This document shows positions 1,744 to 55,057 of a stretch of DNA of 64,000 nucleotides, one piece after another. The translations under genes were made by a program, and so were the position numbers. Every line of letters begins with the position of its first letter. Position 1 is the first letter of the stretch. The stretch is from Plazaster borealis (lineage: Eukaryota > Echinodermata > Asteroidea > Forcipulatida > Labidiasteridae), in assembly GCA_021014325.1 (NCBI GenBank), contig CM037459.1, positions 17,572,501 through 17,636,500 on the forward strand, written 5' to 3'. Below the pieces are notes generated by a model. The model saw only the letters and a list, made by a program, of their open reading frames with translations. It made no database searches and was not told the origin of the DNA.

Positions 1744-4700
1744 CCTGTTTGAGTGCCTTCCTTGTGTTTTCTTGTATGGACTGACGACATGTGCCTCGCT
1801 GAACAGCTTGTCCTGGTCCTCACTGTAAAACCTCTCCATTAGCTTCTCTTTGTCCCATTTGAAATGGTTTAGAAGAATTCTGGTGACCGTTGCAGGAATC
1901 TACAATGTACAAAAAGGTAAAGGGAAAATAAAATAGGAATTTTTTTGTTAAGTTGTGCTATTACAAAAGATACATTCATGAGAATTTTTTTATAAAATCT
2001 TATACAGTATTTAACTGTTCATTCAGTCAATAAACAAACTGTACCAGGGCCCAATTTCATAGAGCTGCTTAACGGCTAATTTTGTGCTTACTGCGTGAGT
2101 TTCTATTTCATAGTGCTGCTAAGCAAACGAAAAGGCATGCTAACCTTCCAGTGCTATACTTGTACTGTATGAAAATGAATGACATAACAATGCAAATCCA
2201 TGGTGAATGCGCAAGCTGACTGCCTGATTTTCTTGCTAATCTGTGAAACACAGGTACGCTTACGCTAAAATTATGCACATTTTTCGCTGAGAAATTGGCC
2301 CCATGTGATGTGGCAATCAACAGCAATTTACCCCCCCCCCAAAAAAAGAGGGAAGCGCCAGGCACATCTAGACTTTGTACAACATGTACGCTAATTTCTT
2401 TTTTAATGGCACCGCTGAGAAACCAAAAATGAAGAAATCAGCTGCAGAAATCACTTCCATTCCTGCACGTAGCCTATGTAGACAAATTTTCGATGTGAAA
2501 TTTGATGAGTAAGATTTAATGCTTTGTGTGGTACACGCATGGGAAGGAGGAAGGAAGTGTACACGTGGTACTGTACATGTAGCTTGAGGTGAAATCCATA
2601 ATAATAATCTCTTCTTGGAAGAGACGTCTGTGCGATACCTTGACAGGAAATTGATTGAGCAGGGCTCAAATTTAACATTGGACTACAGGCCCCAGGCCAG
2701 TCATTTTATTGTCAGGCCAATAAACCCAGGACCGGACAAGTCCAAGGTCTTTTGATTTTCAATTGAATAATAGTACCTCACTGAGTAATATTAAAATTAT
2801 AAAAAAAGTAGTTTTCAAATGTTCACTCTGAGTCTGGAATTTTTATTTTTCAATTCTGATGAGTATCGAAAATACACTTTAAAGTACCCATAAATCAAAT
2901 GAGATAAATTTCAAACGAAAACAGTTAAAACTTTGGAGAAAGTTCTTTTAAAACTTCTTTCTTATTTAGAATTAGATTCTGGCCAATGTAAAACAAAGTT
3001 TGATCCGGTAAAGTTTTTGAGCTACGAGCCCTAATTCAACTTGTGGACCAAATTCGAGCCCTGTTGAGATTGAAAGATTTCAAGTTGCACTTGCTACAGT
3101 GTAGTACATGTAGCATGTTACTTTCCTCCTCAGTCATGTCAGTCGAAGGTTTTACCGTGGCCGAGCGGTTAAGAGCGCCAGACTCAACCTCTGGTGTTTC
3201 TGATCAGCAGACAGTGGGTTCGAGGCTTCGAGTCCCAGTCTTGACTTGGATTGGTAGTGCAAGTACATTGTAAAAGAACCCATGGAACACTTATCGTGGA
3301 AGAGTAGTGGTTAAACCCAGTGTTTCTGGTTCACTTTTTAAAGCAAGCACCCTTGTTTACAGGTTTTCTCAGGCTTGTGAGCTACAGTAATTAAGTTCAC
3401 TGAAGAGGCATCTTTGTTTTCATCACCAGATATTTAATAATAACTGTACAAACTACAATAGTATACTACAAACATTGAAGTTCAAAGAATACATTGTTCG
3501 TTGTACAATACATTTGGTTCATATGTAGCAGGCCTGGAATTCCATCAGTGAGAGGACAAGGCCCCCCTTTTTTTAAGCAAAGAGCATTATCCCTTGGAAA
3601 ACCTTAAGCCTATCTTTGGGAAATTTTTGAAGGGGCAGCAATTAGGCCAAGACCAGGGCAACAGTCACTGACAGTGGTCATGGCCTCCCTGTGACCTCTG
3701 TGTAATTCCAGGCTAGTGCTTGTGACCTTCACTGTACACTGTACATACATGTAGCAAATTTAATTAAGGAGAATCTTACCAGCATAAGAAAAATAGTTGA
3801 TGTCAGCTGTACTTTATGCACGTAATGTACAGCATACAATGAATACATAGCCTGTACTTGTGTACAACACAATACGTGTACAGTGTAGTCTACAGGTTTT
3901 ATCAATTATATAAATCTCATACATAATAATAATAATAATAATAAGACTTGTAATGCGCACATATCCACCCTGCTGGGTGTTCAAGGCGCAGTAAAAAACA
4001 AAAAACAAAACAAAACAAAACAAAGACAAAACAGACACAACAAAATTAGTCCTTGAAAACCTGTGACATAAGATAAGTTTTGAGAAGAGATTTGAATTTT
4101 GTGGTACAAAGACAAGATCTAAGATTAAGCGGTAGAGAGTTCCAGATGTGTGGCGCAGCTGAAGAAAAAGACCTGTCACCCCATGAGTGTCGAGACTTGG
4201 GTTCAACGAGGAGAAGCATGGAACTTGATCGAAGATTCCTTGATGGAGTGTAAACTTGAAGTAGTTCAGAAATATAGTGGGGAGCCTTGCCATTAAGTGC
4301 TTTGTGGACAATGAGCATCAGCTTGAAGATGATTCGTTGAGAGATAGGGAGCCAATGTAGTTGTTTCAGAATGGGGGTGATAGAACAGGATTTTCTAGAC
4401 AGTGTCACAATGCGGGCAGCGGTATTTTGGAGGCGTTGAAGACGGGAAATCTGGTTGTTAGGAAGACTGTAGAGAAGAGCATTACCGTTGTCAAGATGAG
4501 AAGTAACAAATGCATGAATGACCTTTTCAGTGGCACTTTTGTCCAAGTACTTGCGAATCTTATCAATATTCCTGATGTGATATGATGACAGACGAACGAT
4601 GTTGTTGATGTGTGGTTGAAGTGTCATCGATGAATCAAAAATAACCCCTAAGTTCCGAGCTTGCAGCGAGGGAGCTATCCGAGCATCACCGATGGAAATG

Positions 4701-7700
4701 TATGGCACTGAAACCTTTGTTAACTGTTGACGTGACCCAAATAGAAGGAACTCTGTCTTATCATCATTTAACTTCAGGAAGTTTTGTTGTGTCCAACGTC
4801 GAATCTCTTGGATGCATTTCTCAAGTCTTGCAATAGATGCATTGGCGTTTTCTTGAGAAGATTTAAACGTGATGTATAGCTGAGTGTCGTCTGCATACAC
4901 ATGGTAATTCAGATTAAATTTCAGGATGATGTCACGAATCGGTAAAGTGTACAGCGTAAACCACTGCGGGCCCAGTACCGACCCCTGTGGCACAGAGTAG
5001 TTCAAAACAACAGGGTCTGATATTGCGGTGCCAATACATACATGCTGAGTTCTATTGTAGAGATACGATTTGCACCATGCTAGGGCTGTGTCCTCTATGC
5101 CAAGGTGATTCTGGAGCCGAGAGAGAAGGATGTTGTGATCAACAGTGTCAAAGGCAGCACTCAAGTCTAGCAGGACTAGTGCTGTTAGGTTACCATTGTC
5201 CATTGCAGAAAGAATATCGTTGCTCACACGGACTAGTGCAGCTTCTGTCCCATGGAAAGGCTTGTATGCTGACTGGAACACGTCGGACAGGTTGAAATTA
5301 TGAATGTGATCAGAAATGCGTGATGAAACTACTCGTTCGATGACTTTTCCAAGATATTTTAAGTTTGCAACCGGTCTGTAGTTTTTGAATATCTCCTTGT
5401 CCAGGTTTGGTTTCTTGATGAGCGGCCTGATGTAGGAAACTTTGAGGCTATCGGGGAAACAACCGGAACTAAGAGATTCGTTTACAAGATTAGTGATGTA
5501 GGGTAAAAATATATCAATGTTTTGCTTCATCATGGATGTTGACACTGGATCAAGCTCACAGGATTTTGAAGGAGATTTCATAATAACCCTTTGAATCTCA
5601 GCAACAGTGGCAGGCTCAAACACAGATAGTCTACACTCTGGTTGAAGATGTGGCAATGTCTGCGGCACGTTGTAAGGGACTGATGAAAAAGATGAGCGGA
5701 TGTCTGAAATCTTGGTGACAAAGAATTTCTGGAATTCATTTGCCAAGTCCTGATCACTGTAAGTGGATGGAAGGACGGGGGTTTTGGGTTTGAGCAACAA
5801 CTTACCAATTATCTTGAAGAGCTTCTTTTGATCTCCTGAGGATTCTTGTACTTGGGATGAATAATGGGTGATCTTTGCCTGGTTGATCAAATTCCTGACT
5901 ACCTTACATTGGTTGCGATATTCTTGTCGTTGTATTTCCAACTTGCCATTTTTCCGCCATTTCCGCTCAAGTTGACGACAGATCTTTCTTGCTGTACGAA
6001 TATCATCATTGAACCAGGAAACTTCAGTTCGGACCTTGACTGATCTTGTTTTCCAGGGTGCGTATTTATCCAAGATGTCACTGATAGTACTCTCATATTG
6101 GCTGACATAGGAATCCAAGCAGTTGTGATCAATTTCCAGCTTTGCTAAATGAGTTCCTATGTCGCGGAACACTTCAGGAGAATTCACATGTTTCCACTGT
6201 CGGCTCTTTATAGTGACGGTTGGGACTTTGGGCTTGCACAGACTCAAGTTACACATGACTGCATAATGGTCTGAGAATCCAGGTAGAATAACAAAGTTTG
6301 AGACAATAGGTGGGGTGATGTCACGAGTCATGACAAGGTCCAGGCAATGACCGAGACGATGAGTCGGCTCCTTGATATGCTGGGTAAGACCGAAAGCCTG
6401 AAGTAGATGCTTAAACTGGTTTGCATTCGTGTTGTGGATGTCATCAACATGAATGTTAAAGTCACCAGTGATGATGATTTCCGATGGATGAAGGAGATAT
6501 TCTAAAATCAAATTCTCAAATTCCTTAAGAAAACTTGAGAAAGTCACATGTTGGCCGTTAGAATCTCTTTCAGGTCTGTATACAATGACAAGGCGAACAG
6601 ATTTAGAGTTTCCGGAAACCTCAGCATGAAGAGATTCAAAAGTTGTGTATTGGATGTCATTACTTTTCAATGTACACATGTACTGTACCAGGTACATGTA
6701 TAGCACAATATGTACATGTAGACTATGGATCTTTGTAGACTATGGATCTTCCTGTAAATGGATCTAATGCATGACACTATGTACTAAAAGCAATGTGCAC
6801 ACATGTACAGACATGTAAAAAGTGCAGTTTAAGAACAATCTCCATATAAAGTCATATAAATTTGTCAGTTTGTCCAGTTCACATGTTAGGAACACTGTGT
6901 ATTGTGGAATGCAAAATTTCCACGGTTAGGATTTTCCAGAAGCAACAATGTTGTACATGTACACGTATCCTTCCCCAGTCTTTGAGGTGACAAGCTTTTC
7001 TCAGAAACACATTCAAAAAATGGTACAATACTTACATACATGTACATGTACATGTACACACCATGTCTTTGAGCACTAAATAAATAATTCAAGATCACTG
7101 TTACAATGTACATAATATCATACATAAAAAGTAAAGTAAATGAGTATTTGTATCAAAATACTAGATTTCTGTAACATCAAAAAATCTGCAATGTACATTA
7201 CATGATGGACAATATAGTTTTACAATTCGTCTGCATACATGTACATGTACATGTAGGCCTACATGTACCATGTTTGACTTTGATGATACTTATTTATTAC
7301 ACTTACAGTATTTTATATTTTAACAACTCTCTTTTTTATTTTGCTCTGAAGTTTTTTCCAGACAATACTGCAGAAGTCACAATGTAGGCCTACATTTGTT
7401 ATGCAAAACCCTACATTTGTTATTTATGCAAAAAACCCAGTGTAAATGTTTTAAAATTATACATTGATGTAATTTTCACAATTGTATCTTAAATGCACAA
7501 TGTTCATGGTGAAATACGCACATTAGTTGTGGTATTATTATTATTATTATTATCATTTTAATAAACTGTTTTAAGTATCTTCAGTACATGATGTACATGA
7601 TGTACATATGTACAATGTATGTGTGTACACTGTACATGTACATGCATACAGTAGGCCTATACATGGTTGACAGGTTCAATGTGTAATGCACATCGGTACA

Positions 7701-18819: not shown

Positions 18820-18828
18820 CGGTAGGTC
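18820..18828. repeat. Left 9-bp target-site duplication of the giant foldback element
   Basis: CGGTAGGTC, identical to 33141-33149. It directly abuts the ACCAAGCTGAAG terminus. Confidence 0.9.
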
Positions 18829-18953
18829 ACCAAGCTGAAGCTAGCCGCGAATTCTCAGCCGCGAATTCCCAGCCGCGAATACCAGCCGCGAATTCTCAAT
18901 TTACGGCCAAAAAGTCCAGCCGCTAATTCGAGCAGCCACGCCAGCCGCGAATT
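18829..18953. repeat. Left terminal tandem repeats of the foldback element
   Basis: About six AGCCGCGAATTC-type units (12-15 bp spacing, some degenerate such as AGCCGCTAATTCG). They are mirrored at 33018-33140. EcoRI-like GAATTC cores recur in most units. Confidence 0.85.
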
Positions 18954-19209
18954 TCATAAACCAAAGTAGTTTCACGAAGCGACAGGATTTCCTAAGTTGT
19001 TCACCCACATTAGCCACTATTTCTTAAGTTTTGTAAAATCATGGCAATTTTGAATGTTGGTTTTGTAAATTTGTTGTCATAATAACAAAATGTAGGCCAA
19101 ATTAGGTTAAAATAATTGACTGTTTAATGCTTTATTCGATCCATGAAACTTTAATGGTTACATATCGACTTTCTGAATATCAGTTGTTTTGGAAAAAAAA
19201 AAAAAAAAA
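18954..19209. repeat. Left unique arm segment of the foldback element
   Basis: Non-tandem sequence with recognisable inverted homology to 32764-33017. Shared blocks include GAAGCGACA/CAAAGCGACA, TTAGCCACTATTTCTTAA and CTTTCTGAA. The divergence is high compared with the perfect 26-bp tips. Confidence 0.7.
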
Positions 19210-22200
19210 ACATTGCATTGAACAAAATGTACCTAACATGATCAACAGATAATTAATTTAGTGTTAAATCTTTTAGACACTAAATGAATATTCCATTGCA
19301 GCTTTACTAGGCCCACTAATTAGTTCCTGTTTTTTGTAAATAGCAAAAGTAGTCACTTTAAAACGCAATTTACCTCGCATAATTAACAAATAATTAATTT
19401 TTAGTGTTTAATGATTAAGACCATTTCATAACACATCGAAATATTCCGTTGCAGCTAATTAAACCAACAAATTAATCATAATGACACCCATTTATAGGGT
19501 ATGGGTTAGTGTCTCTTTTGAAGGGGACTTTCACTAAAAAATAACGTAAGTAGTCACTTTAAAACAAATTGTACCTCACATAATTAACAAATTGTTACTT
19601 TTTATTGTTTAATAATTAAGACAATTACATAACACATCGAAATATTCCGTTGCAGCTAATTAGACCAACTGATTGGTGCCTAATTAAACCACTTTATATG
19701 CTGTGGGTTTTGTCTCATTTGAAGGGAATTTTTATCAAAGAAATAACGTAAGTAGTCACTTTAAAACAAAATGTACCTCACATAATTAACAAATTGTTAC
19801 TTTTTAGTGTTTAATCATTAAGACCATTACATAACACATCGAAATATTCCGTTGCAGCTAATTTGACCAACTAACTGGTGCCTAATTAAACCACTTTATA
19901 TGCTGTGGGTTTTGTCTCATTTGAAGGCAATTTTTATCAAAGAAATAACGTAAGTAGTCACTTTAAAACAAAATGTACCTCACATAATTAACAAATAATT
20001 AATTTTTAGTGTTTAATCATTAAGACCATTACATAACACATCGAAATATTCCGTTGCAGCTGATTAGACCAACTGATTGGTGCCTAATTAAACCACTTTA
20101 TATGCTGTGGGTTTTGTCTCATTTGAAGGGAATTTTTATCAAAGAAATAACGTAAGTAGTCACTTTAAAACAAAATGTACCTTACATAATTATAAAATTG
20201 CAAATTTTTAGTATTTAATCATTAAGACCATTACATAACACATCGAAATATTCCGTTGTAGTTAATTAGACCAACTAATTAGTGCCTAATTAAATCACTT
20301 TATATGCTGTGGTTTTGCCTCATTTGAAGGCAATTTTTATCAAAGAAATAACGTAAGTAGTCACTTTAAAACAAAATGTACCTCACATAATTAACAAATT
20401 GCAAATTTTTAGTGTTTAATCATTAAGACCATTACATAACACATCGAAATATTCCGTTGCAGTTAATTAGACCAACTAATTGGTGCCTAATTAAACCACT
20501 TTATATGCTGTGGTTTTGTCTCATTTGAAGGGAATTTTTATCAAAGAAATAACGTAAGTAGTCACTTTAAAACAAAATGTACCTCACATAATTAACAAAT
20601 TGTTACTTTTTAGTGTTTAATCATTAAGACCAATACATAACACATCGAAATATTCCGTTGCAGCTGATTAGACCAACTGATTGGTGCCTAATTAAACCAC
20701 TTTATTTGCTGTGGGTTTTGTCTCATTTGAAGGGAATTTTATCAAAGAAATAACGTAAGTAGTCACTTTAAAACAAAATGTACCTTACATAATTAACAAA
20801 TAATTAATTTTTAGTGTTTAATCATTAAGACCATTACATAACACATCGAAATATTCCGTTGCAGCTGATTAGACCAACTGATTGGTGCCTAATTAAACCA
20901 CTTTATATGGTGTGGGTTTTGTCTCATTTGAAGGGAATTTTTATCAAAGAAATAACGTAAGTAGTCACTTTAAAACAAAATGTACCTTACATAATTATAA
21001 AATTGCAAATTTTTAGTATTTAATCATTAAGACCATTACATAACACATCGAAATATTCCGTTGTAGTTAATTAGACCAACTAATTAGCGCCTAATTAAAT
21101 CACTTTATATGCTGTGGTTTTGCCTCATTTGAAGGCCATTTTTATCAAAGAAATAACGTAAGTAGTCACTTTAAAACAAAATGTACCTTACATAATTAAC
21201 AAATTGCAAATTTTTAGTGTTTAATCATTAAGACCATTACATAACACATCGAAATATTCCGTTGCAGCTGATTAGACCAACCAATTGGTGCCTAATTAAA
21301 CCACTTTATATGCTGTGGGTTTTGTCTCATTTGAAGGGAATTTTTATCAAAGAAATAACGTAAGTAGTCACTTTAAAACAAAATGTACCTCACATAATTA
21401 ACAAATTGTTACTTTTTAGTGTTTAATCATTAAGACCATTACATAACACATCGAAATATTCCGTTGCAGTTAATTAGACCAACTAATTGGTGCCTAATTA
21501 AACCACTTTATATGCTGTGGTTTTGTCTCATTTTAAGGGAATTTTTATCAAAGAAATAACGTAAGTAGTCACTTTAAAACAAAATGTACCTCACATAATT
21601 AACAAATTGTAAATTTTTAGTGTTTACACATTAAGACCATTACATAACACATCGAAATGTTCCGTTGCAGCTAATTAGACCAACTGATTGGTGCCTAATT
21701 AAACCACTTTATATGGTGTGGGTTTTGTCTCATTTGAAGGGAATTTTTATCAAAGAAATAACGTAAGTAGTCACTTTAAAACAAAATGTACCTTACATAA
21801 CTATAAAATTGCAAATTTTTAGTATTTAATCATTAAGACCATTACATAACACATCGAAATATTCCGTTGTAGTTAATTAGACCAACTAATTAGTGCCTAA
21901 TTAAATCACTTTATATGCTGTGGTTTTGCCTCATTTGAAGGCAATTTTTATCAAAGAAATAACGTAAGTAGTCACTTTAAAACAAAATGTACCTCACATA
22001 ATTAACAAATTGCAAATTTTTAGTGTTTAATCATTAAGACCATTACATAACACATCGAAATATTCCGTTGCAGTTAATTAGACCAACTAATTGGTGCCTA
22101 ATTAAACCACTTTATATGCTGTGGTTTAGTCTCATTTGAAGGGAATTTTTATCAAAGAAATAACGTAAGTAGTCACTTTAAAACAAAATGTACCTCACAT

Positions 22201-23510
22201 AATTAACAAATTGTTACTTTTTAGTGTTTAATCATTAAGACCATTACATAACACATCGAAATATTCCGTTGCAGCTGATTAGACCAACTGATTGGTGCCT
22301 AATTAAACCACTTTATTTGCTGTGGGTTTTGTCTCATTTGAAGGGAATTTTTATCAAAGAAATAACGTAAGTAGTCACTTTAAAACAAAATGTACCTTAC
22401 ATAATTAACAAATAATTAATTTTTAGTGTTTAATCATTAAGACCATTACATAACACATCGAAATATTCCGTTGCAGCTGATTAGACCAACTGATTGGTGC
22501 CTAATTAAACCACTTTATGTGCTGTGGGTTTTGTCTCATTTGAAGGGAATTTTTATCAAAGAAATAACGTAAGTAGTCACTTTAAAACAAAATGTACCTT
22601 ACATAATTATAAAATTGTAAATTTTAGTGTTTAATAATTAAGACCATTACATAACACATCGAAATATTCCGTTGCAGCTGATTAGACCAACTGATTGGTG
22701 CCTAATTAAACCACTTTATATGCTGTGGGTTTTGTCTCATTTGAAGGCAATTTTTATCAAAGAAATAACGTAAGTAGTCACTTTAAAACAAAATGTACCT
22801 TACATAATTATAAAATTGTAAATTTTTAGTGTTTAATCATTAAGACCATTACATAACACATCGAAATATTCCGTTGCAGCTGATTAGACCAACTGATTGG
22901 TGCCTAATTAAACCACTTTATATGCTGTGGGTTTTGTCTCATTTGAAGGGAATTTTTATCAAAGAAATAACGTAAGTAGTCACTTTAAAACAAAATGTAC
23001 CTCACATAATTAACAAATTGTTACTTTTTAGTGTTTAATCATTAAGACCATTACATAACACATCGAAATATTCCGTTGCAGTTAATTAGACCAACTAATT
23101 GGTGCCTAATTAAACCACTTTATATGCTGTGGTTTTGTCTCATTTTAAGGGAATTTTTATCAAAGAAATAACGTAAGTAGTCACTTTAAAACAAAATGTA
23201 CCTCACATAATTAACAAATTGTAAATTTTTAGTGTTTACACATTAAGACCATTACATAACACATCGAAATATTCCGTTGCAGCTAATTTGACCAACTGAT
23301 TGGTGCCTAATTAAATCACTTTATATGTTGTGGGTTTTGTCTCATTTGAAGGGAATTTTTATCAAAGAAATAATGTAAGTAGTCACTTTAAAACAAAATG
23401 TACCTCACATAATTAACAAATTGTAAATTTTTAGTGTTTAATCATTAAGACCATTTCATAACACATCGAAATATTCCGTTGCAGCTAATTAGACCAACCA
23501 ATTGGTGCCT
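19210..23510 (+). repeat. Left satellite array, ~202-bp monomer, about 21 copies
   Basis: The monomer contains AACGTAAGTAGTCACTTTAA, TGTACCTCACATAATTAACA and CGAAATATTCCGTTGCAG. The phrase GTAAGTAGTCACTTT recurs about every 202 bp from ~19348 to ~23372. Monomers vary. A distinctive version (CTTACATAATTATAAAATTG ... CCGTTGTAG) starts at 20181, 20986 and 21792, an ~805-bp four-monomer higher-order period. Outermost monomers are the most diverged. The array ends abruptly at 23510 inside a retrotransposon gag sequence. Confidence 0.93.
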
Positions 23511-24653
23511 TCGTGTGACCCTTCTTATGACAGTAATCACACGGAGGAAAAGACTTCTTCTTGTCGTCCTTGGCTCCACTCGGCGATGAAGGCTTTCTAT
23601 CCGATGAATACGGACTTCCAGTGCTAGACTGCGCCTTTGAACCTGACTTGCCCTTAGTATTTTGGTAAAAACCCTTTGACTGGAAATTAGTTTTGCCCAT
23701 ACTCATTTTATGAGTTAATTCATAATCATCAGCTACCACTGCAGCTTTCTTTAATTTGGTGATCTTGTGTTCTTCCAAATGGGTTTTGATACTCAGAGGG
23801 ACACTGTTTTTGAATTCTTCCATGAGGACAACTTCTTTTAACTCCTCAAAATATTTCTCACATTTGAGAGACTGATACCATCGATCAAAAACAATTTCCT
23901 TCTGTCTAGCGAATTCAACAAAGGTCTGGCCATTCAATCTAGTCAGTTTTCTAAATTTCTGTCTATACGCCTCAGGAACCAACTCATACGCATTTAAAAT
24001 GGATGCCTTAACCGTAGAATATTTACTACATTGGTCCTCTGAAAGTGTGGCAAAGACTTTCTGAGCCTTACCCACAAAAGTGCTCTGCAGGAGCAAAGGC
24101 CAATATTTCTTAGGCCAACTAAGATTTTTGGCAATCTTCTCAAACGACAGAAAATACGTATCAACATCGTGTTCGTTGAATTTTGGCACCAACATCACGT
24201 TTTTCGCTAGATCAAAATCAATTGGAGTTCTCTCCTTGCCTTTCTTTGAACCCACTTCTAATTCAAGCTTACGCAGTTCAAATTCTCGTTCCTTTTCCTT
24301 TTCTTTGAGCTCAAGCCTTCGTAGTTCAAGTTCTCTTTCTTTATCTCTTTCTTGACTTTCTCTTTCTTTTTCTCTTTCTTTCTCTTCAAACTCAAGCCTG
24401 AGCCTTTCCTTTTCAAGCTCAATTTTTGCAAGCTCAATTTCTCGATCAAAAGTCTGCGGAGACTATGAGACAACTCTAAGTTCAGTACTCCTGCTAGAAC
24501 GTTCACTAGTTTTGCCTTTTTGGCACTTCTAGAAATTTCTACATGAACGTGTTTGGCAACTCCGTGCAACTCGTCTTTTGATAACTGTTGCAACTTCTCG
24601 ATTGACAAATCTTCAGAATCCACGAAAGCTTGTGCATCAAACTCACTAGCCAT
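23508..24653 (-). pseudogene. Gypsy-type LTR retrotransposon gag, frameshifted and 3' truncated
   Basis: Starts at ATG 24653 (MASEFDAQAF), about 110 bp after the primer-binding site. The N-terminal part is in one frame (24653 to about 24450). A frame change then leads into a long Glu/Lys/Arg coiled-coil-like stretch and on into the second frame (24255 to 23485). That frame has a SCAN-like capsid region (DVDTYFLSFEKIA, YELVPEAYRQKFRKL, FVEFARQKE) and the start of a zinc knuckle, CDYCHKKGH. The last knuckle Cys and everything after it are replaced by satellite sequence at 23510, which supplies the stop. No protease or pol remains. SCAN-like gag proteins are known from Gmr1-like gypsy elements. 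A dead fragment. Confidence 0.8.
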
Positions 24654-24746
24654 TTTTATACAACACTACAGACTAGTAACAATAAAACGTGCAACCTTGT
24701 TTGACAATTGTACACAAAAATATACGGCTTATTTTTGTTCGATTTC

Positions 24747-24763
24747 CCGGACAGGCCCCCAAT
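24747..24763 (-). other. Primer-binding site, tRNA-Pro-like
   Basis: Minus strand TTGGGGGCCTGTCCGGG, directly after the LTR end TAACA plus one or two bases. It resembles the proline-tRNA primer sites used by many gypsy-type elements and retroviruses, with a small internal mismatch. It fixes the direction of the LTR and gag. Confidence 0.7.
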
Positions 24764-24764
24764 T

Positions 24765-25582
24765 TGTTACGATCCAAAAATCTCCAAACTATCCGTGAAT
24801 ATAAATCACTCAAAAAGCTTGAATTTTCTCAGATGCAACAAAGAAATCAAACAAGGTGACACGGATGTAAAGAACACAGAATCAAAGTGATTTAATAATG
24901 AAACTATCGGCCACTTCAAATACCTATTGGGTTTAACAAACGTACAATGATTGAGTAAAACAAGTGTACATTAAAATAGATCGTATACAAAATAAGTAAT
25001 TTAACAGGCTAATACGTCAACCGGGATGAAATACAGGCGAGGATCACGGCAACAGAAGATACAGCGAGGATCACATACACTGGCTCCAAAACGATCAACT
25101 CCAGGGACGGTAAAACAGTTCTTTGCCGATGTGACTTTGAGCTATCACGGGGTAAACTCACTCCGATAAAATGTCCAGAAGAAGACGAAACAACGACGGG
25201 CACACAATCTGACACCCGCCACAAAATATGGGGAAAAGACCCCAAAATACCGAACTGTAGATTAAGTTCGAAACTGTCCTTTCCGGATTTAAATTAAGCT
25301 CTTTAACTGCACTCGGTCAAAAGCGAACTCTACCAAAAGCTCCTCCAACGAGTTGAATCACAATCACAGAAGTCGTAGCTTCCACCAGTCTTGAGTATTT
25401 GTGTCCCGTCCTAGATTTACCCCCAGCCCGTATATAAAGGATTTGTGTCGTTTTAGAAAGTACTACTCTAGATCATTCTATTAGCACCGCCCACTAGGGT
25501 TAACGACCTTACACACAAAGAATGATTGACAGCGTGCGTTGAACACACGTAAGTAATGTACATGTATTAGGATCTCATAACA
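24765..25582 (-). mobile_element. 5' LTR (818 bp) of the gypsy-type fragment
   Basis: Minus strand begins TGTTATGAGATCC (25582) and ends GGATCGTAACA (24765), the TG...CA form with inverted tips TGTTA/TAACA. A promoter-like CTTTATATACGGG lies near 25430. The opposite LTR is absent because the element is cut at 23510. Its 5' boundary interrupts the last exon of the cargo gene. Confidence 0.75.
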
Positions 25583-28500
25583 GTTAGCATAGTTCAAATC
25601 GCTTAACTCATCAATATTCGCCAGTATTTCAACACTTGGACTTGCAACCCGAGGAACATTTTCATCGTGTTGGATGTTGTCAGAATATACAGATTGCATA
25701 TCAGCATCACCACATTCACTGCTATTCTGGTTATTCGCACCCTGTTCACAACTTGCTGTTTGCTTTGGACACTTTGAGCCTTGGCTCTCGGTATTTATTT
25801 TGTCATGAAACAAAGCCCTAACTGTTTGTCTAAACCCAAACCTGTTACACTTCCACATTAACTGAATCATTTTAAAACCATTACTTTAGACAGTCTACCT
25901 GGTCCCGTAATTGTTGCATCATTTGTGCGGAAATATCTAGAGAGTCGTCGTTTCCCGGATAGGTGTGGAGGATGTCAACCAAGACTCTCGCAACTCGAGT
26001 TGTTCTCTTCTCCCCAGTTAACTTCTTTCCACCACCAGTTTTGCCGTAGACAGTTTCCGTTTGCTGTATAAGAGAAATAACGCGATATTTGTTTTACTTA
26101 AAGCGTATTTCTGAACAGTGTTGAGGACGTTACCGGTCAAGCTTCTTCTTCAAGTTTAATTTGTTTGTGAAAAAACAATTATATATTATTTTTTCAATAA
26201 CTACAGTAGACCTACTTCGAAGTGAAATGTATACTTTCCAGAGTCATTACCGAACGTTAATCACCGTTGAGTAGGATTCACAATCAATTATACAGGTAAA
26301 GTCCTACTATGATATTACAAGATTTTATAACAATTAGTTTAAACATGTGACAACCGGTTGCATTGATATTGCTCTTTGACAGCTTGGCGGACATACGCCG
26401 TTGTAATGGGAGCAGACCAACTGTGCAATTGTTGATAATATTATGTTAGGGCTAGGAGATAAATACATCTTCAAAAATATCAAATTGTACACGATGAGGA
26501 ATACGAAATAATGTAGAAAAAATATGCATTGCCCAGTAAAGTGTAAACCCATTTTGAATGCTTCCGTCACATGCATACACATTGGATTTAAATGAACAAA
26601 CCTATACCATTGAAAAAGGGATTAGGCTATCGTATTCTTATATTTACAATTAGCACAATTGTAATAACGCAACATCCACAACTACACCACCCGTGACACC
26701 AAAGACAAAATAAATAATTGATTTCATTTAAGTTCAGATTAGAATTAATGTTGACTTACACTTGCCTCTTTCGGTCGATGTTTGGCGTAGAAATGGTCTA
26801 GGAATGCAAATTCAGATGTGCATATTCGTTTGCATTCGAAACAACGAACTGCAAGAACGGTTCTCCTTTTGCTTGTTTTGTGGTCATTGTTGGTCCGCTT
26901 TGACTTGTGGTGAGATGTCATCCGAGGACAACATGTTGTAGTTTCATGTCGTCGGTCCTATATTGCATAACAAAACATTTTTCACATTATAATTTTATAC
27001 AGTTCCAAACACAATTGAATATTTATGGACCACAACTTGTTTACCTTCAACAGTTTAGGGATTCCAAATATTTGTCTGTTAAACATCCCTAACCATTGAA
27101 AAAATATACGAATAGGTCGAATTTGTTGAACAGTTTAAAAAATGATCAAATTTTAAAGAGGGCAGTGGAAATTTTTTGTATTTACTCTCACTTATTCATT
27201 AAATTACTCAAAATTGTTTTTAAATTCACGTCGATATTACTTGGTGTATAGTTTTTAGGAAAGATAATGAATAAACTAAAATGATTGGAAACGTGAAACT
27301 TGCCTTATAAAGTGATGCCCTTGGAAGTGGAATTATGTACTCCACAGACCACATGTCATGCGCCCCTCTGCCGGATACGCAGATCCCATTTCTGTAAAGT
27401 AAGATTATTTGAACATAATTATTGTGGCACCAAGATTACTATGGAAACATATATACATTAAGTATTAACATTCATAAACGTATACTGTAAAAAAAAGACC
27501 ACGTCCATTGTGAACGCGTCTCTTTGTTAATTTGTTAAACGCCTCCTTGTGTATGACGCGTAAATTGCACTGTAAAAACAGTGTTTAGAGTATAAACACT
27601 TTTCTAAACACTTTCTTGCTATCACTTTGTAAACACGTCCTAATGATTAGCATGTTTAATAGCTAAACGTCTAATGCACTAGACGTTTAGCTATTAAACA
27701 TTTTAATGTTTAATTTCTAAAATCTAATGTTTTAATCTAAACTTCTAATGTTCAATGTCTAAACATATAATGTTTAATATCTAAACACCAAGCGTCCTAT
27801 ACTGCTAAACACTATAAACATGTCTAAGCATGTTAATCATTAGGACGTGTTTACAAAGTGATAGCAAGAAAGTGTTTAGAAAAGTGTTTATACTCTAAAC
27901 ACTGTTTTTACAGTGGATGTTTAAACGTGTTTTGGTGTTCATAAAGTGTGACCAGCCTTTAAACGTGTATTTGTGTCTTGCTACACAACAATGTGTCTTT
28001 GGTCCACATTAATAAACGAATAAACGTGTTTTGTATATAATAATAAACACCGCAGTGCGTTTTTGATGTAAGGGTTAACGCAAAAACGCGTTCATATAAA
28101 GTGTTACCCAAAATGCGTTTAAAAGGCTTTAAAATATTAACACTTGTTTTTACAATGTGGAATCTTGTGATGATTACTGTGTTTTGATGTCAACTATGCA
28201 ATCAAAAAAGGGATAAAAGTAGAGTGACCCCTTTAATCAGACGTTAATGTTAAAAGCGCTATTAACAGTCTTAGTATTTTGAAGGGTATACGATCGCGCA
28301 ACGATGGTTAATAAAAATGACCGCATTTTTTGTAGGCTGAAAATAAACTTAAAATATCACACAAAACGTGTTGTGTTGTAGGTACGACTCTAGTTGTTCT
28401 TTATTTACTCTCTTTGTTCTTTATTTAAATACCATCTTGCAAAAGGCAGCAACTTCGAAATATCATAGAATAGTGTTTTTCAACAAGAGAATTGTACATA

Positions 28501-28653
28501 CCTGACATGTCTACGAAATACCTCTTGGATACGATGTTTTGAGGGTTCTGTGATTCCTTGTACAATGGAATCGCTGGGCTGAGAGACTCTCTCCGTTTCC
28601 TTTCGAGTATCCCCCCGCAAAGGTTGGATATGAGGATTACAAGTGCTGGTCAT
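25583..28653 (-). CDS. Cargo gene of the giant foldback element, spliced C2H2 zinc-finger protein, 3' end lost
   Basis: Exons on the minus strand: 28502-28653, 27304-27391, 26760-26957, 25899-26063, and probably 25583-25861. Every junction keeps the frame: phase 2 (CAG|GTATGT to TTACAG|A), then phase 0 at AAG|GCAAGT (a GC-AG intron), AGT|GTAAGT and CAG|GTAGAC. ATG 28653 has an in-frame TAA two codons upstream. Exon 3 encodes a C2H2 finger, RCFECKRICTSEFAFLDHF followed by YAKH (C-x2-C-x12-H-x4-H), in a basic Lys/Arg/His context. Exon 4 has VARVLVDILHTYPGNDD. The last intron would be only 37 nt; if unspliced, the protein stops at 25881-25883 (about 205 aa). The 96-codon last exon is acidic and Ser-rich and is cut by the LTR at 25582. 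I do not recognise the family. It may be a captured host gene or an element-encoded protein. Confidence 0.55.
26760..26957 (-). CDS. Exon 3 of the cargo gene: C2H2 zinc finger
   Basis: A 66-codon exon with acceptor CAATATAG| and donor AGT|GTAAGTC. All four metal ligands are present with spacing 2-12-4, plus the usual hydrophobic F and L between the second Cys and first His. It is the only recognisable domain in the gene and suggests nucleic-acid binding. Confidence 0.6.
27568..27915. mobile_element. Nested palindromic MITE, 87-bp inverted repeats
   Basis: Arms 27568-27654 and 27829-27915 are nearly identical inverted copies starting CACTGTAAAAACAGTG. The centre has a second perfect hairpin with 20-bp arms (GTTTAATAGCTAAACGTCTA; 27655-27700), then a chain of TAATGTTTAATNTCTAAA-like units. 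It sits in the cargo gene intron between exons 1 and 2. Outer ACTGTAAAAA/TTTTTACAAT sequences near 27487 and 28155 hint that it lies inside a larger related element. The CACTG start recalls EnSpm-type ends, but no target duplication was clear. Confidence 0.8.
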
Positions 28654-29439
28654 GTCTTACAAGTTTAGCCATTCGATTTTCATTTAAAAAAGTACTATTA
28701 AATAAACGGCGCTGTCCAAAAACCCGGAGGAAAAGGCTCTTCATGAGTATTACGGAACACCACCAGGCCGAAACTACGCAGATTGAAACTTATGGGATCA
28801 TTATTAAATTTGTTTGAGTGTACATTGTATTAAAAGGTCCCCAAAGGGAGGGGTAATTTATCAACATTATCTCTTATACAAGAAGGTCTTTGTTCTTGCT
28901 CAAATTGGGGAGGTACCGCAGCCGTGCGAGTTTCGTGTGTTTGTAACTTTCAAATTAGTATATACTTAAACTTTTAACATTAAAGTCACCGTCCAATTTT
29001 AATAAAAATGTATTCAGTCACAATTCTTGTAGGCCTACCAGCAGCGATAATAACGTCATTTTTGTCGTCATTCCAAGCTGCGATGTGTGTTTAAGGACAT
29101 AACCAAAAACATGAATACTGTAATCAAGCTGCAATCATATAAATTACACTTTTATTTATTTATTAAAAACCTTAATGGTGTTAGAATGTTATTCCTTTAA
29201 TCCCTTTGGTCATCTCCAGATACAGCATGGTGCCATTGACCACTTATGATCACTCATCACTTGTCTCATGGAATGCAGCTTGAGCGGACCACACATTACG
29301 CAATTGAATTACATTAAAGTGAACCAACCCAGTCAGGGTGTGTTTACGTTGAATTACCTTAACTTAGTTTTACGACCATCTGCCAGGGGCATGCAGTCAG
29401 GCTACCGGTTCAAAGTATTAAGTAACAATAATTATAGTT
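28654..29439. other. Upstream part of the foldback cargo, no gene seen
   Basis: Unique AT-rich sequence between the cargo gene ATG and the right satellite array. It is the likely promoter or 5' UTR of the cargo gene. No ORF above 60 codons and no clear TATA box. Confidence 0.5.
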
Positions 29440-32400
29440 AAGGAAATATTCAGTGGTGTTTTGAAGTGGTCTTAATGATTAAACACTAAACATTTACAAT
29501 TTGTTAATTATGTGAGGTAAATTTTGTTTTAAAGTGACTTATACTTACATTATTTCTTTGATAAAAATTCCCTTCAAATGAGACAAAACCACAGCATATA
29601 AAGTGATTTAATTAGGCACCAACTAGTTGGTCAAATTAGCTGCAACGGAATATTTCGATGTGTTATGTAATGGTCTTAATGTGTAAACACTAAAAATTTA
29701 CAATTTTATAATTATGTAAGGTACATTTTGTTTTAAAGTGACTGCTTACGTTATTTCTTTGATAAAAATTGCCTTCAAATGAGATAAAACCCACAGCATA
29801 TAAATTGGTTTAATTAGGCACTAATTAGTTGGTCTAATTAGCTGCAACGGAATATTTCGATGTGTTATGTAATGGTCTTAATTATTAAACACTAAAAATT
29901 AATTATTTGTTAATTATGTGAGGTACATTTTGTTTTAAAGTGACTACTTACATTATTTCTTTGATAAAAATTCCCTTCAAATGAGACAAAACCATAGCAT
30001 ATAAAGTGGTTTAATTAGGCACCAATTGGTTGGTCTAAGTAGCTGCAACGGAATATTTCGAAGTGTTATGTAATGGTCTTAATGATTAAACACTAAAAAT
30101 TTACAATTTGTTAATTATGTGAGGTACATTTTGTTTTAAAGTGACTACTTACGTTATTTCTTTGATAAAAATTGCCTTCAAATTAGACAAAACCCACAGC
30201 ATATAAATTGGTTTAATTAGGCACTAATTAGTTGGTCTAATTAGCTGCAACGGAATATTTCGATGTGTTATGAAATGGTCTTAATGATTAAACACTAAAA
30301 ATTTACAATTTGTTAATTATGTGAGGTACATTTTGTTTTAAAGTGACTACTTACATTATTTCTTTGATAAAAATATTCAAATGAGACAAAACCAGAGCAT
30401 ATAAAGTGATTTAATTAGGCACCAATTAGTTGATCAAATTAGCTGCAACGGCATATTTCGATGTGTTATGATTATGTCTTTACGATGGAATAATGAAAAT
30501 GAAATATTTGTAATTTATGTGAGGTACATTTTGTTTTAAAGTGACGCTCTTCGTCAATTTGTATCAAAAATACCATTAAAAAGTGAGGAAAATCACACGA
30601 TATAAAGTGGTTTATTTAAGAACTAATTAGTTGGTCTAATTAGCTGCAACGGAATATTTAGACGTGTTATGAAGTTGTCTTTACGACTAAATAATAAAAA
30701 TGAAATATTTGTGATTTATGTGAGGTACATTTTGTTTTAAAGTGACTCTCTTCGTCAATTTGTATCAAAAATACCGTTAAAAAGTGAGGAAAATCACACG
30801 ATATAAAGTGGTATAGTTAGGCATTAATTAGTGAGCCCAATTAGCTGCAACGGAATATATAGACGTGTTATGAAGTTGTCTTTACGATTAAATAATAAAA
30901 ATGAAATATTTGTGATTTATCTGAGGTACATTTTGTTTTAAAGTGACTCTCTTCGTCAATTTGTATCAAAAATACCATTAAAAAGTGAGGAAATTCACAC
31001 GATATAAAGTGGTATATAGTTAGGCACTAATTAGTGAGCCCAATTAGCTGCAACGGAATATTTAGACGTGTTATGAAGTTGCCTTTACGATAAAATAATA
31101 AAAATGAAATATTTGTAATTTATGTGAGGTACATTTTGTTTTAAAGTGACGCTTTTCGTTAATTTATATCAAAAATACCATTAAAAAGTGAGGAAATTCA
31201 CACGATATAAAGTGGTATAGTTAGGCACTATATAGTAAGCCCAATGAGCTGCAACGGAATGTTTAGACGTGTTATGATTATGTCTTTACGATGGAATAAT
31301 AAAAAAGAAATATTTGTGATTTATCTGAGGTACATTTTGTTTTAAAGTGACGCTCTTCGTCAATTTGTATCAAAAATACCATTAAAAAGTGAGGAAAATC
31401 ACACGATATAAAGTGGTATAATTAGGCATTAATTAGCGGGTCCAATTAGCTGCAACGGAATATTTAAACGTGTTATGATTATGTCTTTACGATTAAATAA
31501 TAAAAATTAAATATTTCTGATTTATCTGAGGTACATTTTGTTTTAAAGTGACGCTCATCGTCAATTTGTATCAAAAATACCATTAAAAAGTGAGGAAATT
31601 CACACGATATAAAGTGGTATATAGTTAGGCACTAATTAGTGAGCCCAATTAGCTGCAACGGAATATTTAGACGTGTTATGAAGTTGTCTTTACGATTAAA
31701 TAATAAAAATGAAATATTTGTAATTTATGTGAGGTACATTTTGTTTTAAAGTGACTCTCTTCGTCAATTTGTATCAAAATACCATTAAAAAGTGAGGAAA
31801 ATCACACGATATAAAGTGGTATAGTTAGGCATTAGTTAGTGGGTCCAATTAGCTGCAACGGAATATTTAGACGTGTTATGATAATGTCTTTACGATGGAA
31901 TAATGAAAATGAAATATTTATGAATTATGTGAGGTACATTTTGTTTTAAAGTGACGCTCTTCGTAAATTTTCAAGTTAAGGTTCCATTCAAAAGTGACGG
32001 AAATCACACCATAAAAAGTTGTCTGATTAGGCACTAATTAGTGGGTCTAATTAGCTGCAACGGAATATTTAGACGTGTTATGATTATGTCTTTACGATGG
32101 AATAATGAAAATGAAATATTTGTAATTTATGTGAGGTACATTTTGTTTTAAAGTGACTCTCTTCGTCAATTTGTATCAAAAATACCATTAAAAAGTGAGG
32201 AAAATCACACGATATAAAGTGGTATAGTTAGGCATTAATTAGTGGGTCCAATTAGCTGCAACGGAATATTTAGACGTTTTATGATAATGTCTTTACGATG
32301 GAATAATGAAAATGAAATATTTATGAATTATGCGAGGTACATTTTGTTTGAAAGTGACGCTCTTCGTAAATTTTCAAGTAAAGTTCCATTCAAAAGTGAC

Positions 32401-32763
32401 GGAAGTCACACCATATAAAGTGGTATAATTAGGCAATAATTAGTCGGTCTAATTAGCTGCAACGGAATATTTAGACGTGTTATAGGATGGTCTTTAAGGT
32501 TAAACACAAAAAATTGCTTATTTATGAATTATGTGAGGTACACTTTGTTTTAAAGCGACGCTCAGCGTTAATTTTGTGTAAAAATTCCACTCAAAAGTGA
32601 CAATAATCACACCATATAAAGTGGTGTAATTAGGCATTAATTAGTGGATCGAATTAGCTGCAACGGAATATTTAGACGTGTTATAATGTTGTCTTTATGT
32701 TTAAATACTAAAAATTAAATATTTGTGAATTATGTGAGGTACATTTTGTTTTAAAGCGACTCT
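29440..32763 (-). repeat. Right satellite array, inverted, about 17 monomers
   Basis: Reverse orientation of the left array (AGCTGCAACGGAATATTTCGATG; GAGGTACATTTTGTTTTAAA). The latter phrase recurs every ~202 bp from ~29512 to ~32738. The inner five monomers (to about 30470) are the same type as the left array. The outer dozen are a second type with CTTCGTCAATTTGTATCAAA and AGTGAGGAAAATCACACGAT. The array is shorter than the left one. Confidence 0.92.
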
Positions 32764-33017
32764 TATGTATTTTAAAGACAAGAGATCTTCAGAAAGTTGA
32801 TAGGGAAGTCCGTTAACTTTTTAAGGACCAAATGAAGCATTAAATAATCACTTATCTTGACTTAATTTGGTCCAGAGTTTGTCATTATGTTATTAATTTT
32901 GCCAAAATAATATCAAAAAATCACTATTAAATGTTAAAGGTTAAGAAATAGTGGCTAAAGTGAATCTACAAGTTTAGTAAATTTTGTCGCTTTGTGAGAC
33001 TAGTTTGGTTCAGGGAA
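32764..33017. repeat. Right unique arm segment of the foldback element
   Basis: Inverted, diverged counterpart of 18954-19209 (TTAAGAAATAGTGGCTAA, TTGTCGCTTTGTGAGACTAG). Non-coding. Confidence 0.7.
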
Positions 33018-33140
33018 TTCGCGGCTGGCCGGCCTCACGATTTTGCAGCTGGATTTTTCAGCCGTGAATTGGGACTTCGCGGCTGGCATTCGCGGCTCTG
33101 GCATTCGCGGCTGGGAATTCGCGGCTAGCTTCAGCTTGGT
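33018..33140. repeat. Right terminal tandem repeats of the foldback element
   Basis: GAATTCGCGGCT-type units in inverted orientation to 18829-18953, ending GCTAGCTTCAGCTTGGT. The last 26 bp are a perfect complement of the left end. Confidence 0.85.
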
Positions 33141-33149
33141 CGGTAGGTC
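33141..33149. repeat. Right 9-bp target-site duplication
   Basis: CGGTAGGTC, identical to 18820-18828. It lies 79 bp before the COX5A ATG. Confidence 0.9.
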
Positions 33150-33227: not shown

Positions 33228-36200
33228 ATGTTTCGTCGAGTAGTATCCAGCATTATTACAAACACGAGAACAGCACTAACTGTACACGCGTGCAGTCGAC
33301 CTCTTGGTAAGTATTTTTCTTTGGCTGAAGTTTGATAAAAAAGCTACACATAAAGGCTAAGCATAGCCAGTTACTCTTGACTTGTCTTACTCTTAAAGTC
33401 TTATCATTCATCAACAAAGCGCCTACACCCGGATGTAGCCCCATTAATAGTGCCAAATTCTCTGGACGTCCTCCGATCCTTGGCCCTACGCCCACGTACC
33501 TCCAGGAGGTGACATTTGTTTTCGAAAAGAAACTCACGTTTTATGCCGAGATTTTTTCCCCAGTTGTCACTTATTGTAGCTCATTTGTGGACAGCACATT
33601 AATTCGAAAAAGAGCTTGCTCTTTTTGGTGTAATTTATGAAGAAAATCGGCGGCGTTACTGACACGGTTTGACTGCCCGGCATCCGCGATTTTGCTTATG
33701 CGCTATGGTCTTGGTGCAAGACGTTTCCGTTTACCTTTCACGCACAGCGCGCCGACGACCCGCTCATTCAACTCGCCAATAGCGCGCCCACGAACACCTG
33801 ACTTTAGCCCACGAACCGCCCCGCGCTATTGGCGAGTTGAATGAGCGGGTCGTCGGCCGCGCTGTGCGTAGAAGGTAAACGAGAAACGTCTTGCACCAAG
33901 ACCATAGCGCATTAGCAAAATCGCGGATGCCGGGCAGTCAAACCGTGTCAGTAACGCCGCCGATTTTCTTCATAAATTACACCAAAAAGAGCAAGCTCTA
34001 TTTCGAATTAATGTGCTGTCCACAAATGAGCTACAATAAGTGACAACTGGGGAAAAAATCTCGGCATAAAAACGTGAGTTTCTTTTCGAAAACAAATGTC
34101 ACCTCCTGGAGGTACGTGGGCGTAGGGCCAAGGATCGGAGGAAGTCCAGAGAATTTGGCACTATTAATGGGGCTAACCCGGATGATGAACACCCGTACCG
34201 TCATGACCGTCGTACCGTAAAGTCATGAAGTAACCGGTCCTACTATTCTAATGAAGGAAGCCCTAAAGAATGCCAGTCAACTCGCCCCCAGCAAAGTCGC
34301 CCACTACAAATTTCGCCCTTCGCATCCAAGCTCGCCCCTCTCACATGTCTCAAGTCAAAGTCGCCCCTCAAAGTCTCGAAAATCAAGTGACTAACTAACT
34401 TTAATTCAACCTCAATCGAGTCAATCCTCATGTCTTGCATGTCATGATCATTGTGTTACCACCCTTCCAATGTATTGACAAAGTTTTGTGTATGTTCCCT
34501 TTCAATGTATTGCTTTTGTGTATATAAACAATAGCACCCTTCCAATGTATTGCTTGTGTGTAGCCTATGTTCCCTTTCAATGTATTGCTTTTGTGTATCC
34601 TCCCGTGTCCGGTTTTCGATGTACTATGCCTTTTTCTTTGAATTGAAAAAAAAATAATGATGCCATATATCAACTGATGCCCTAATTACCTTCCTTTGTT
34701 TATAAGAAGTATGTAAAAATATATTAAAACTTGATAGACATTGAAACTTTCACACCACGCACCGATCTTCGATGACTTCAATAGCGTCCCCGTGTTTTGA
34801 GTTTGACCTGTTTTCGAGGCAAACAAGAAAGTATGGTGTCCTGGTGAAGCCATACGCAGAAGAAACATCTGCAGTGACTTCAAGTGTTCTGTGAGACGTT
34901 GTGTATGACTCTATAGCCAGCAGTTGTCTTCATTTTATTTAAAATATTTTTTATTTAATTTTAAAAATTACGATGGTAATTTGCAAAAACTAAACAAAAA
35001 AAACAAAAAACAAAAAAGTGTCAATAAGTCTTGGCTTTCAAATCTGATTTTTTTTAAAGTTTTGAATCTTTTTATGTTTCTTAACATTTATAATAAAGCA
35101 TATCAATAAACAGTGATATTTGAATCACCAAGCCAATGTTTAAATTTTAATGTTATTAATAATAAATGATATGAGGGTTTAAAAAAAAATTCTCCAGACT
35201 ATTATATATGTTATATGATATAAGGCACATGGCTTCTTTAAGCCTCTGTATTTTTTTCCCCAGAATGCTCAGCAGAATTTTAAGTCACATGATTTTATCA
35301 TCGTGAATTGTGAATTGAAAAATTGTTCGATGAAACTTTTTCGGCGGGCAAATTTTTTTTATGGCCCCGACAGTATGACATATTTTGTACCTTGTAGAAA
35401 TGCCTAAAATACCACAACTTTTTGCAATACAAGTGCAACTTGCCAGTGGAGCCTTACATGTTTCTAAGTTTTGGTCAAAGGAGAGGAGACTCTTTGCTTG
35501 GCAAGTCAAACCACAAAAATTGTATCTAGGGACTGTTTACATCGCGCGCAGAGAGGTAAAAGATTTGCATCGATTTCAGGGACGCCCTGAAAACAGGACC
35601 TCCTACGGTATATAAACAATAGCCCCAAACAAAACATTGTAAGGGTGGTAACATATTCATATGCTCATCATAACATACATACATAGTCATTGTAATGTAT
35701 TTTCAGCACGTATGCCGGAGAATTCGTACATGTGTATGGTTAAATTATTTGGTATTCACTGCGCGTGCGTCATTTGCAAGTGATTTTATGTGCGTAGTTT
35801 TGTTCGTCCGTCCGTGAAAAGTCATTTTCCGCAAATCATTCAGATAACCGTACAAATCTGCGAGAAGTGTGTCAATTTTTTGACTCAGGGTGGGGCTTTG
35901 GACACGCAAATCCGACTCATGGACAGTGACGCACCATCCTGGGGGTCATATAGTGCGCATTACAATTGATAGGTGTATAAACAACATAATTAGATAAATA
36001 ACTTGGTAAAAAATATACTTATAACTTAACTTAGTTTAAAAACAAGTAAATACAAAACAAGTAAGTTAATAACCATATCAAAACAATAAAGTAAAATAAC
36101 TGATTAGATATTGTACGAACACAGATGTACAAAAATTATTGTTCTACCAACATGCAGAGTGGAACTCCTAGTACAGAATCTATCTTCCAAATTGCCTGAA

Positions 36201-54170: not shown

Positions 54171-54198
54171 TTCATATGCAGCTACGCTATCGCTAGCT

Positions 54199-55057
54199 TA
54201 GCCCCATTAATAGTGCCAATACTCTGGACTTCCTCCGATCCTTGCCCCTACGCCCATGTACCTCCAGGAGGTGACATTTGTTTTCGAATAGAAACTCACG
54301 TTTTTTATGCCGAGATTTTTTCCCACGTTGTCACTTATTGTAGCTCATTTGTGGACAGCACATTAAGACGAAAATGTGCGCGCTCGTTTTGGTGAAATTT
54401 ATGAAGAAAATCGGAGGCGTTACTGACACGGTTTGACTGCCCGGCATCCGTGATGTTTACTAATGCGCTAGTCTTGATGCAAGACGTTTCTCGTTTACCT
54501 TTCAAGCACAGCGTGGCCGACGACCTGCTCATTCAACTCACCAATAGCGCGGGGGCAGTTCGTGGGCTAAGTCAGGCTGTGTCCGAATTGGCAGCTACAG
54601 CTACGGCTACGGCTAGATTTCCACGTCATCATGCGTTGAAGAATAAGATGTCCTTAGCAACACCCTTACCTTTATTTAGCAACAGTCGTAGCCGTAGCTG
54701 TAGTCGCCAATTCGGATACGGCCTCAGGTGTTCATGCCGGGTGAGTTGAATGAGCGGGTCGTCGGCCACGCTGTGCATGAAAGGTAAACGAGAAACATCT
54801 TGCACCAAGACTAGCGCATTAGCAAACAACACCTGAACACGGATGCCGGGCAGTCAAACCGTGTCACGACAGTAGCGCCTCCGATTTTCTTCATAAATTA
54901 CACCAAAACAAGCACGCACATTTTCGTCTTAATGTGCTTAAGTGGCAACTGGGGATAAAATCTCGGCATAAAGGAGGAAGTCCAGAGTATTGGCACTTGT
55001 CTTGACTAGTGATTGGCCCAATTTATGGGGCTAGTCTTGACATGCTTGATGGGGCTA
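54199..55057. mobile_element. TAGCCCC palindrome (859 bp) with 9-bp target duplication, copy B
   Basis: Same family as 33436-34175. Flanked by TCGCTAGCT at 54190-54198 and 55058-55066. Its central loop is interrupted by another MITE at 54575-54723. Its right arm has deletions and an extra GGGGCTA-containing stretch near the tip. Confidence 0.88.
54575..54723. mobile_element. Small MITE nested in the TAGCCCC palindrome (Harbinger-like)
   Basis: Inverted ends GGCTGTGTCCGAATTGGC and its near complement (GCCAATTCGGATACGGCC), then GCTACAGCTACGGCTACG both sides. The 3-bp TCA at 54572-54574 and 54724-54726 fits the 3-bp duplications of PIF/Harbinger. Superfamily is an inference. Confidence 0.7.

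Follow-up and report, generated by a model that had tools for sequence, protein, structure and literature searches.

Long inverted arms built of tandem repeats, together with duplications of 8–9 bp at the target site, characterize the TU elements of sea urchins and FB of Drosophila, whose arms are far shorter than those of the sea-star family described here (the comparison is by description, not by sequence). Foldbacks with ~200-bp repeats in their TIRs also exist, in the form of Tetris and Galileo F. Tetris, a non-autonomous, satellite-linked foldback of Drosophila virilis, has ~220-bp tandem TIR repeats and target-site duplications (TSDs) of 8–10 bp; its TIRs are at most 1,735 bp long, and separate satellite-like arrays of its repeats occur as well. 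Galileo (Drosophila, P superfamily) is foldback-like, with ~210-bp tandem repeats in the TIRs of the F subfamily, chimeric copies and changes in TIR length; its TIRs span 18–1,250 bp and hold at most 3 repeats, and its TSDs are 7 bp. Tm1 of root-knot nematodes (Mutator/Phantom) has TIRs of 13–15-bp (mostly 14) tandem repeats and mostly 9-bp TSDs, the copies described being ~1–2.6 kb long, without a ~200-bp satellite, and associated with a MULE-type transposase. The particulars of Tetris, Galileo and Tm1, and the TSD range of MULEs used below, are taken from PMC4079207, PMC3169594, PMC6446971 and PMC3573991.

The stretch of DNA analyzed here, called the window, is 64 kb long. Its segment 18829–33140 is very probably a copy of a recently active, non-autonomous family of foldback-type cut-and-paste DNA transposons with arms that are zoned satellite arrays and a relic centre. 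Three features of the foldback class were looked for and found: long inverted ends of tandem repeats, TSDs at dispersed sites, and a centre that varies or is missing. Unlike Tetris, the sea-star family has arms of up to 7.1 kb, two monomer zones and a satellite that is nearly absent outside the element, and unlike Galileo it has up to 34 monomers per arm and TSDs of 8–9 bp. Against the literature searched, the novelty lies in the large scale, in the division of the arrays into two zones, in a copy without a centre and in the almost complete restriction of the satellite to the element; no such element was found described in sea stars. The origin of satellites from mobile elements has mostly been inferred from old remains; here, near-identical centres combined with arrays of differing length, each insertion being fixed by its duplication, make the gain and loss of monomers countable copy by copy. 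The family also raises the question of how elements as long as 17.9 kb, with inverted satellite arms of several kilobases, can be processed by a transposase.

The window copy and its family

When the whole window was scanned, CGGTAGGTC was present at exactly two places, 18820–18828 and 33141–33149 (both plus strand), which flank the element as the 9-bp duplication that an initial annotation had noticed and enclose 14,312 bp (18829–33140). The termini form an inverted pair that is perfect over 26 bp, ACCAAGCTGAAGCTAGCCGCGAATTC at 18829–18854 (plus strand) and its counterpart at 33115–33140 (minus strand). The arm ends are built of a 14–15-bp repeat of the AGCCGCGAATTC type, which makes up the outer domains at 18843–18952 (plus strand, AGCCGCGAAT type) and 33017–33126 (minus strand). 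Unique arm segments follow, of L type on the left (18953–19220, plus strand) and R type on the right (32762–33016, minus strand), and the outer parts of the two arms are ~76% alike. Inside these lie opposed arrays of one ~202-bp satellite. The short-repeat terminus, the homologous arm segments and the opposed arrays had likewise been described in the initial annotation, and each was recovered.

Perfect inverted pairs of at least 12 bp with an exact 9-bp direct flank occurred three times in the window (the element itself, one pair within the arrays, and a separate palindrome at 33436/34175) versus 0 times in 30 Markov-1 random sequences. Taken as a whole, with its duplication, terminus, repeats, arrays and centre, the structure is beyond chance.

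The window copy lies 78 bp ahead of the start codon of COX5A (Pfam E 1.3e-32), the similarity of which is highest to Asterias rubens (88%), with 80% to Acanthaster, and which identifies the host as a sea star. The other neighbor, exon 1 of ARIH1, is a weaker call (best PDB match E 8.5e-4). The insertion site falls in what would be the divergent ARIH1–COX5A promoter of ~0.8 kb. To the right of the element stands a 759-bp near-perfect palindrome (33426–34184) with its own exact 9-bp duplication (flanks 33436/34175), relatives of which are found at 54198–54972 of the window and in the left flank of another copy of the element, E6. The window further contains a frame of a non-LTR retrotransposon, with domains for endonuclease and reverse transcriptase (4049–6736, minus strand), and a tandem array of ~7 copies of a 36-bp unit (48837–49090).

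The genome search covered an assembly that totals 560.6 Mb in 717 contigs. Since CGGTAGGTC is common there (866 matches), the duplication by itself proves nothing, and it is the terminus that carries the proof. With 24 terminus bases and up to 2 mismatches, 25 matches were obtained in the assembly, and the reversed control gave 0; among the 25, 22 pair up as 11 inverted pairs, and 3 are single. The resulting 11 copies (E1–E11, the window copy being E4) are spread over nine contigs and measure 6,121 to 17,928 bp. Target duplications are exact over 9 bp in five copies (E2, E4, E6, E7 and E10) and over 8 bp in four (E3, E5, E8 and E9); in E1, 8 of 9 positions match, and E11 has no simple duplication. 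Both the expectation that the terminus and its duplications would recur elsewhere in the genome and the proposal of an unusually large foldback-type insertion with a target duplication were thus borne out, the latter for a family with a size range of 6.1–17.9 kb. The terminus and monomer patterns gave 0 matches in the viral contigs searched. One copy, E10 (C18:20457291-20470825), is flanked by ~820-bp inverted repeats that are 78% alike, as if it lay inside another palindromic element.

A palindrome that arose by segmental duplication or inversion would also have arms that are inverted copies of each other, and some flanks do have other repeats in common. Across the 22 flanks of 1.5 kb that were compared, the similarity consisted of such other repeats and never extended up to the junction; the copies stand at unrelated sites, and 10 of the 11 carry 8–9-bp duplications. 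An origin without transposition is therefore extremely improbable, and this explanation was dropped in favor of insertion of a transposon.

Zoned satellite arrays

The left array (19347–23510, plus strand) comprises 20.7 copies with a period of 202 bp and is preceded by a degenerate outermost monomer (72%; 19221–19328, plus strand); its first monomer is ~83% alike and is followed by type A monomers of 201–202 bp. The right array (29445–32761, minus strand) comprises 16.5 copies with a period of 201 bp in the opposite orientation, and consists of an outer block of type B monomers (30548–32761), a chimeric monomer with a first half of B and a second half of A (30350–30547), and an inner block of type A monomers (29445–30350). 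Types A and B are 70–80% alike.

Monomers were counted in each arm by their core motif, with at most 3 mismatches allowed. The 22 arms of the 11 copies divide into 4 of L type, which contain A monomers only (19–34 cores counted), and 18 of R type. In 15 of the 18, the zones from the outside in are the 14-bp repeats, the unique segment, a block of B monomers, a single chimera that begins as B and continues as A, and 1–6 A monomers; the remaining three show no clean chimera, the right arms of E8 and E9 being ambiguous and the right arm of E2 being without A. E2 (13.4 kb, exact 9-bp duplication) is centreless: its A and B arrays join head to head, and a small A-oriented piece lies within its B array. 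In a damaged copy on C13, the A and B arrays are likewise in direct contact.

Within the left array of the window copy, the monomer groups L05/L09/L13, L06/L14, L07/L15, L08/L16 and L11/L19 are 99–100% identical, and identity at these offsets of 4 and 8 indicates that blocks of 4 and of 8 monomers were duplicated recently. Five comparisons of arms were made between copies, and in three of them the length difference was a single gap of whole monomers (606, 1,207 and 2,418 bp, or 3, 6 and 12 monomers). One comparison gave a gap of 1,833 bp (~9.1 monomers). The right arms of E8 and E10 differ by 483 bp in broken gaps with no clean block, and their left arms are equal in monomer number. From these patterns we infer that the arrays change by unequal exchange and conversion. 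The earlier statement that the arms had turned into satellite-like arrays agrees with these data, the similar monomers running head to tail, up to 34 in one arm.

A core 22-mer of the monomer, AAATATTCCGTTGCAGCTAATT, had 310 exact matches in the assembly and 0 in the control, a count by exact matching that passes over diverged monomers and over arrays absent from the assembly. Three hundred of the 310 lie inside the 11 copies. The others placed (305 of 310 in all) were 2 in L073, a diverged relative at C3:13430000-13437000, 2 in the examined part of the C13 copy, and 1 isolated match at C4:17950398. By this measure, no long free satellite arrays were found in the assembly outside the element, and the satellite has hardly left it within the assembly. 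The link that had been drawn between mobile elements and satellite DNA thus stands for arrays within the element and fails for spread out of it, since 300 of the 310 core copies are inside.

That the transposon captured a satellite already present in the genome is improbable. The monomer does not clearly resemble the arms (best E 0.86), so that an origin from the arm would be conjectural and capture gains some room; against it stand the near restriction of core copies to the 11 elements and the monomer-like repeats in L073 and at a terminus on C11, which indicate that such repeats have long been part of the family. The arrays might conceivably have a function within the mobile unit, with the fixed zones serving as platforms for transposase binding or arm pairing; all-satellite copies such as E2 might be mobile themselves, and the satellite might be dispersed by cut-and-paste rather than remain where it is. 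We regard this suggestion as tentative and rather unlikely.

Centres and the relic gene

The centre was found in three states among the 11 copies: 5.9 kb, 483 bp and none. The full 5.9-kb centre, with an LTR/gag piece, a relic gene and a palindrome, is present in E3, E4, E5, E8 and E10; in pairwise comparison these centres differ by 2–25 substitutions in 5,900–5,921 bp and by 6–16 indel events (~99% or more identical), with 2 differences in 5,905 bases between E8 and E10. A 483-bp derivative with 0–1 differences is present in E1, E6, E7, E9 and E11.

The centre of the window copy had been taken to be free of repeats, which did not hold, as it contains a fragment of a Gypsy-type LTR element and a ~357-bp palindrome, and the whole of it recurs in four further copies. 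The fragment comprises a piece of gag with a SCAN domain (E 2.3e-12), cut at the array boundary (23511–24665, minus strand), and an 818-bp LTR (24765–25582, minus strand). The nested element is abundant, with at least 41 matches, mostly at 93–98%, among the 40 of 616 candidates that were scored. In each of the five full-centre copies, 4–5 bp separate its cut edge from the array, and the Gypsy-type insertion and the deletion therefore predate the spread of the family. The palindrome is a MITE-like insert (27568–27925, unstranded) inside the relic gene.

An open frame interrupted by the LTR (25583–25885, minus strand) is homologous to a frame of L073. Next to it lie four pieces of a putative gene on the minus strand: exon 4 (25881–26063), the acceptor of which is positioned as in L073, with ~63% protein identity there; exon 3 (26766–26957), with a finger that we take to be C2H2-like; exon 2 (27304–27391); and exon 1 (28502–28653). 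In the window copy all four pieces (25881–28653) are in frame with consensus-like sites. The exon model was read by eye and is supported by the frame and by the homologous acceptor in L073; a splice scan with strict scores returned a single donor and did not find any acceptor. In the other four full-centre copies the frame is broken, by a 1-bp shift in E3 and E10, a 2-bp shift in E8, a stop in E5 and an 8-bp loss in E8 and E10, some of the 1-bp indels being possible sequencing errors. The product has no protein relative at E 10, and a Pfam scan of it returned nothing. At the sensitivity used, the DNA of the region (25583–27567) matches, in the assembly, the ten centre-bearing copies, a pair of diverged loci on C3 and some short pieces. 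Because the frame is broken in four of five copies and the DNA, these two diverged loci apart, is confined to the family, we interpret the centre as the remnant of a gene region that belonged to the family itself.

The spliced gene had earlier been interpreted as a cargo. A host gene captured and kept under selection would account for the four in-frame exons of the window copy and their consensus-like sites; its frame is open in that copy alone, it has no protein relative, and of the two diverged loci that match it elsewhere in the genome, one bears the arm and monomers of the family. Captured host cargo is thus very unlikely, and it was dropped. The locus with arm and monomers is L073, where an arm segment is 84% similar to the R arm and about five B-like monomers are present, along with an exon that resembles exon 4 of the window copy at 63% and a frame that resembles the LTR-interrupted one at 56%. 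This locus is decayed and lacks its terminus.

Transposition, superfamily and kin

Under the mechanism that we propose, a transposase acting in trans would recognize the conserved terminus, ACCAAGCTGAAGCTAGCCGCGAATTC plus the 14-bp repeats, excise the element, and reinsert it with an 8–9-bp duplication. The ~202-bp satellite array of each arm keeps to a fixed zoning, with B on the outer side, A on the inner side and usually one chimera between them; unequal exchange would add or remove blocks by whole monomers, and exchange between arms or between copies would shuffle A and B blocks and arm types. Before its spread, the family had its relic gene region invaded by the Gypsy-type LTR element, the remaining part of which was lost as far as the array.

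No transposase is encoded in any of the 11 copies. Matches in the genome to PF21787 (35) and to a P-type transposase fragment from L073 (22) included none inside the 11 copies or the kin pairs described below, among the matches listed. In L073 the fragment lies upstream of the exon-4 homologue and is joined to it over a canonical intron. It matches the P transposase 6p5a (E 7.7e-5) and, weakly, PF21787 (E 0.0049, under the curated cut-off); among 11 database proteins that match at E 0.1, ten match the P-type part, and nine of these carry PF21787. Because L073 joins the exon-4 homologue to this fragment, superfamily P is likelier than Mutator, the profile evidence covering the P-type (PF21787) side only. 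The fragment is a lead to superfamily P, short of proof, since L073 is decayed and without terminus. On these sequence similarities, a transposase of the P superfamily is moderately probable for the family. The comparison with TU and FB was apt as to structure; the one coding clue points to superfamily P, as in Galileo.

With the first 20 terminus bases and up to 3 mismatches, 187 matches were found in the assembly versus 2 in the control. Among the 100 of these 187 matches that were listed, a kin terminus, [AG]CCAGACTGAAGCTA[GC]CCGC, occurs beyond the 11 copies on C2, C4, C5, C6, C9, C10 and C11, and at least about ten inverted kin pairs lie 19.5–30.7 kb apart, mostly near 26 kb. The ends of two kin copies were read and have exact duplications of 9 bp and 8 bp.

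The TSD of the P element is 8 bp. The mixed TSDs of 8 and 9 bp compare with 7–8 bp in the P superfamily and are within the 8–11 bp given for MULEs in the papers cited above; 9-bp TSDs were found in 5 of the 11 copies and in 1 of the 2 kin copies checked. These lengths, together with the short tandem repeats and predominantly 9-bp TSDs of Tm1, would suit a Mutator-superfamily foldback (Phantom/FB/Tm1 group) mobilized by a MULE transposase from elsewhere in the genome. Among transposase-like sequences, the only one linked to a relative with the satellite is of P type, and we consider a Mutator affiliation possible and less probable than one to superfamily P.

Further on in L073 come frames with a match to UCH (E 9.9e-20) and a weak one to Ulp1 that falls short of the cut-off (E 0.0022); these UCH-like and Ulp1-like protease frames lie at L073:2650-4373, beside the P-type fragment. 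No P-type element carrying the two proteases (UCH, Ulp1) was found in the literature searched. The UCH frame has 15 matches in the genome, and 5 kb inward of a kin terminus at C2:11400437 lies one of them. Around L073, the 145 kb of C3:13330377-13475511 contain several P-type transposase frames, including open frames of 635 and 650 aa.
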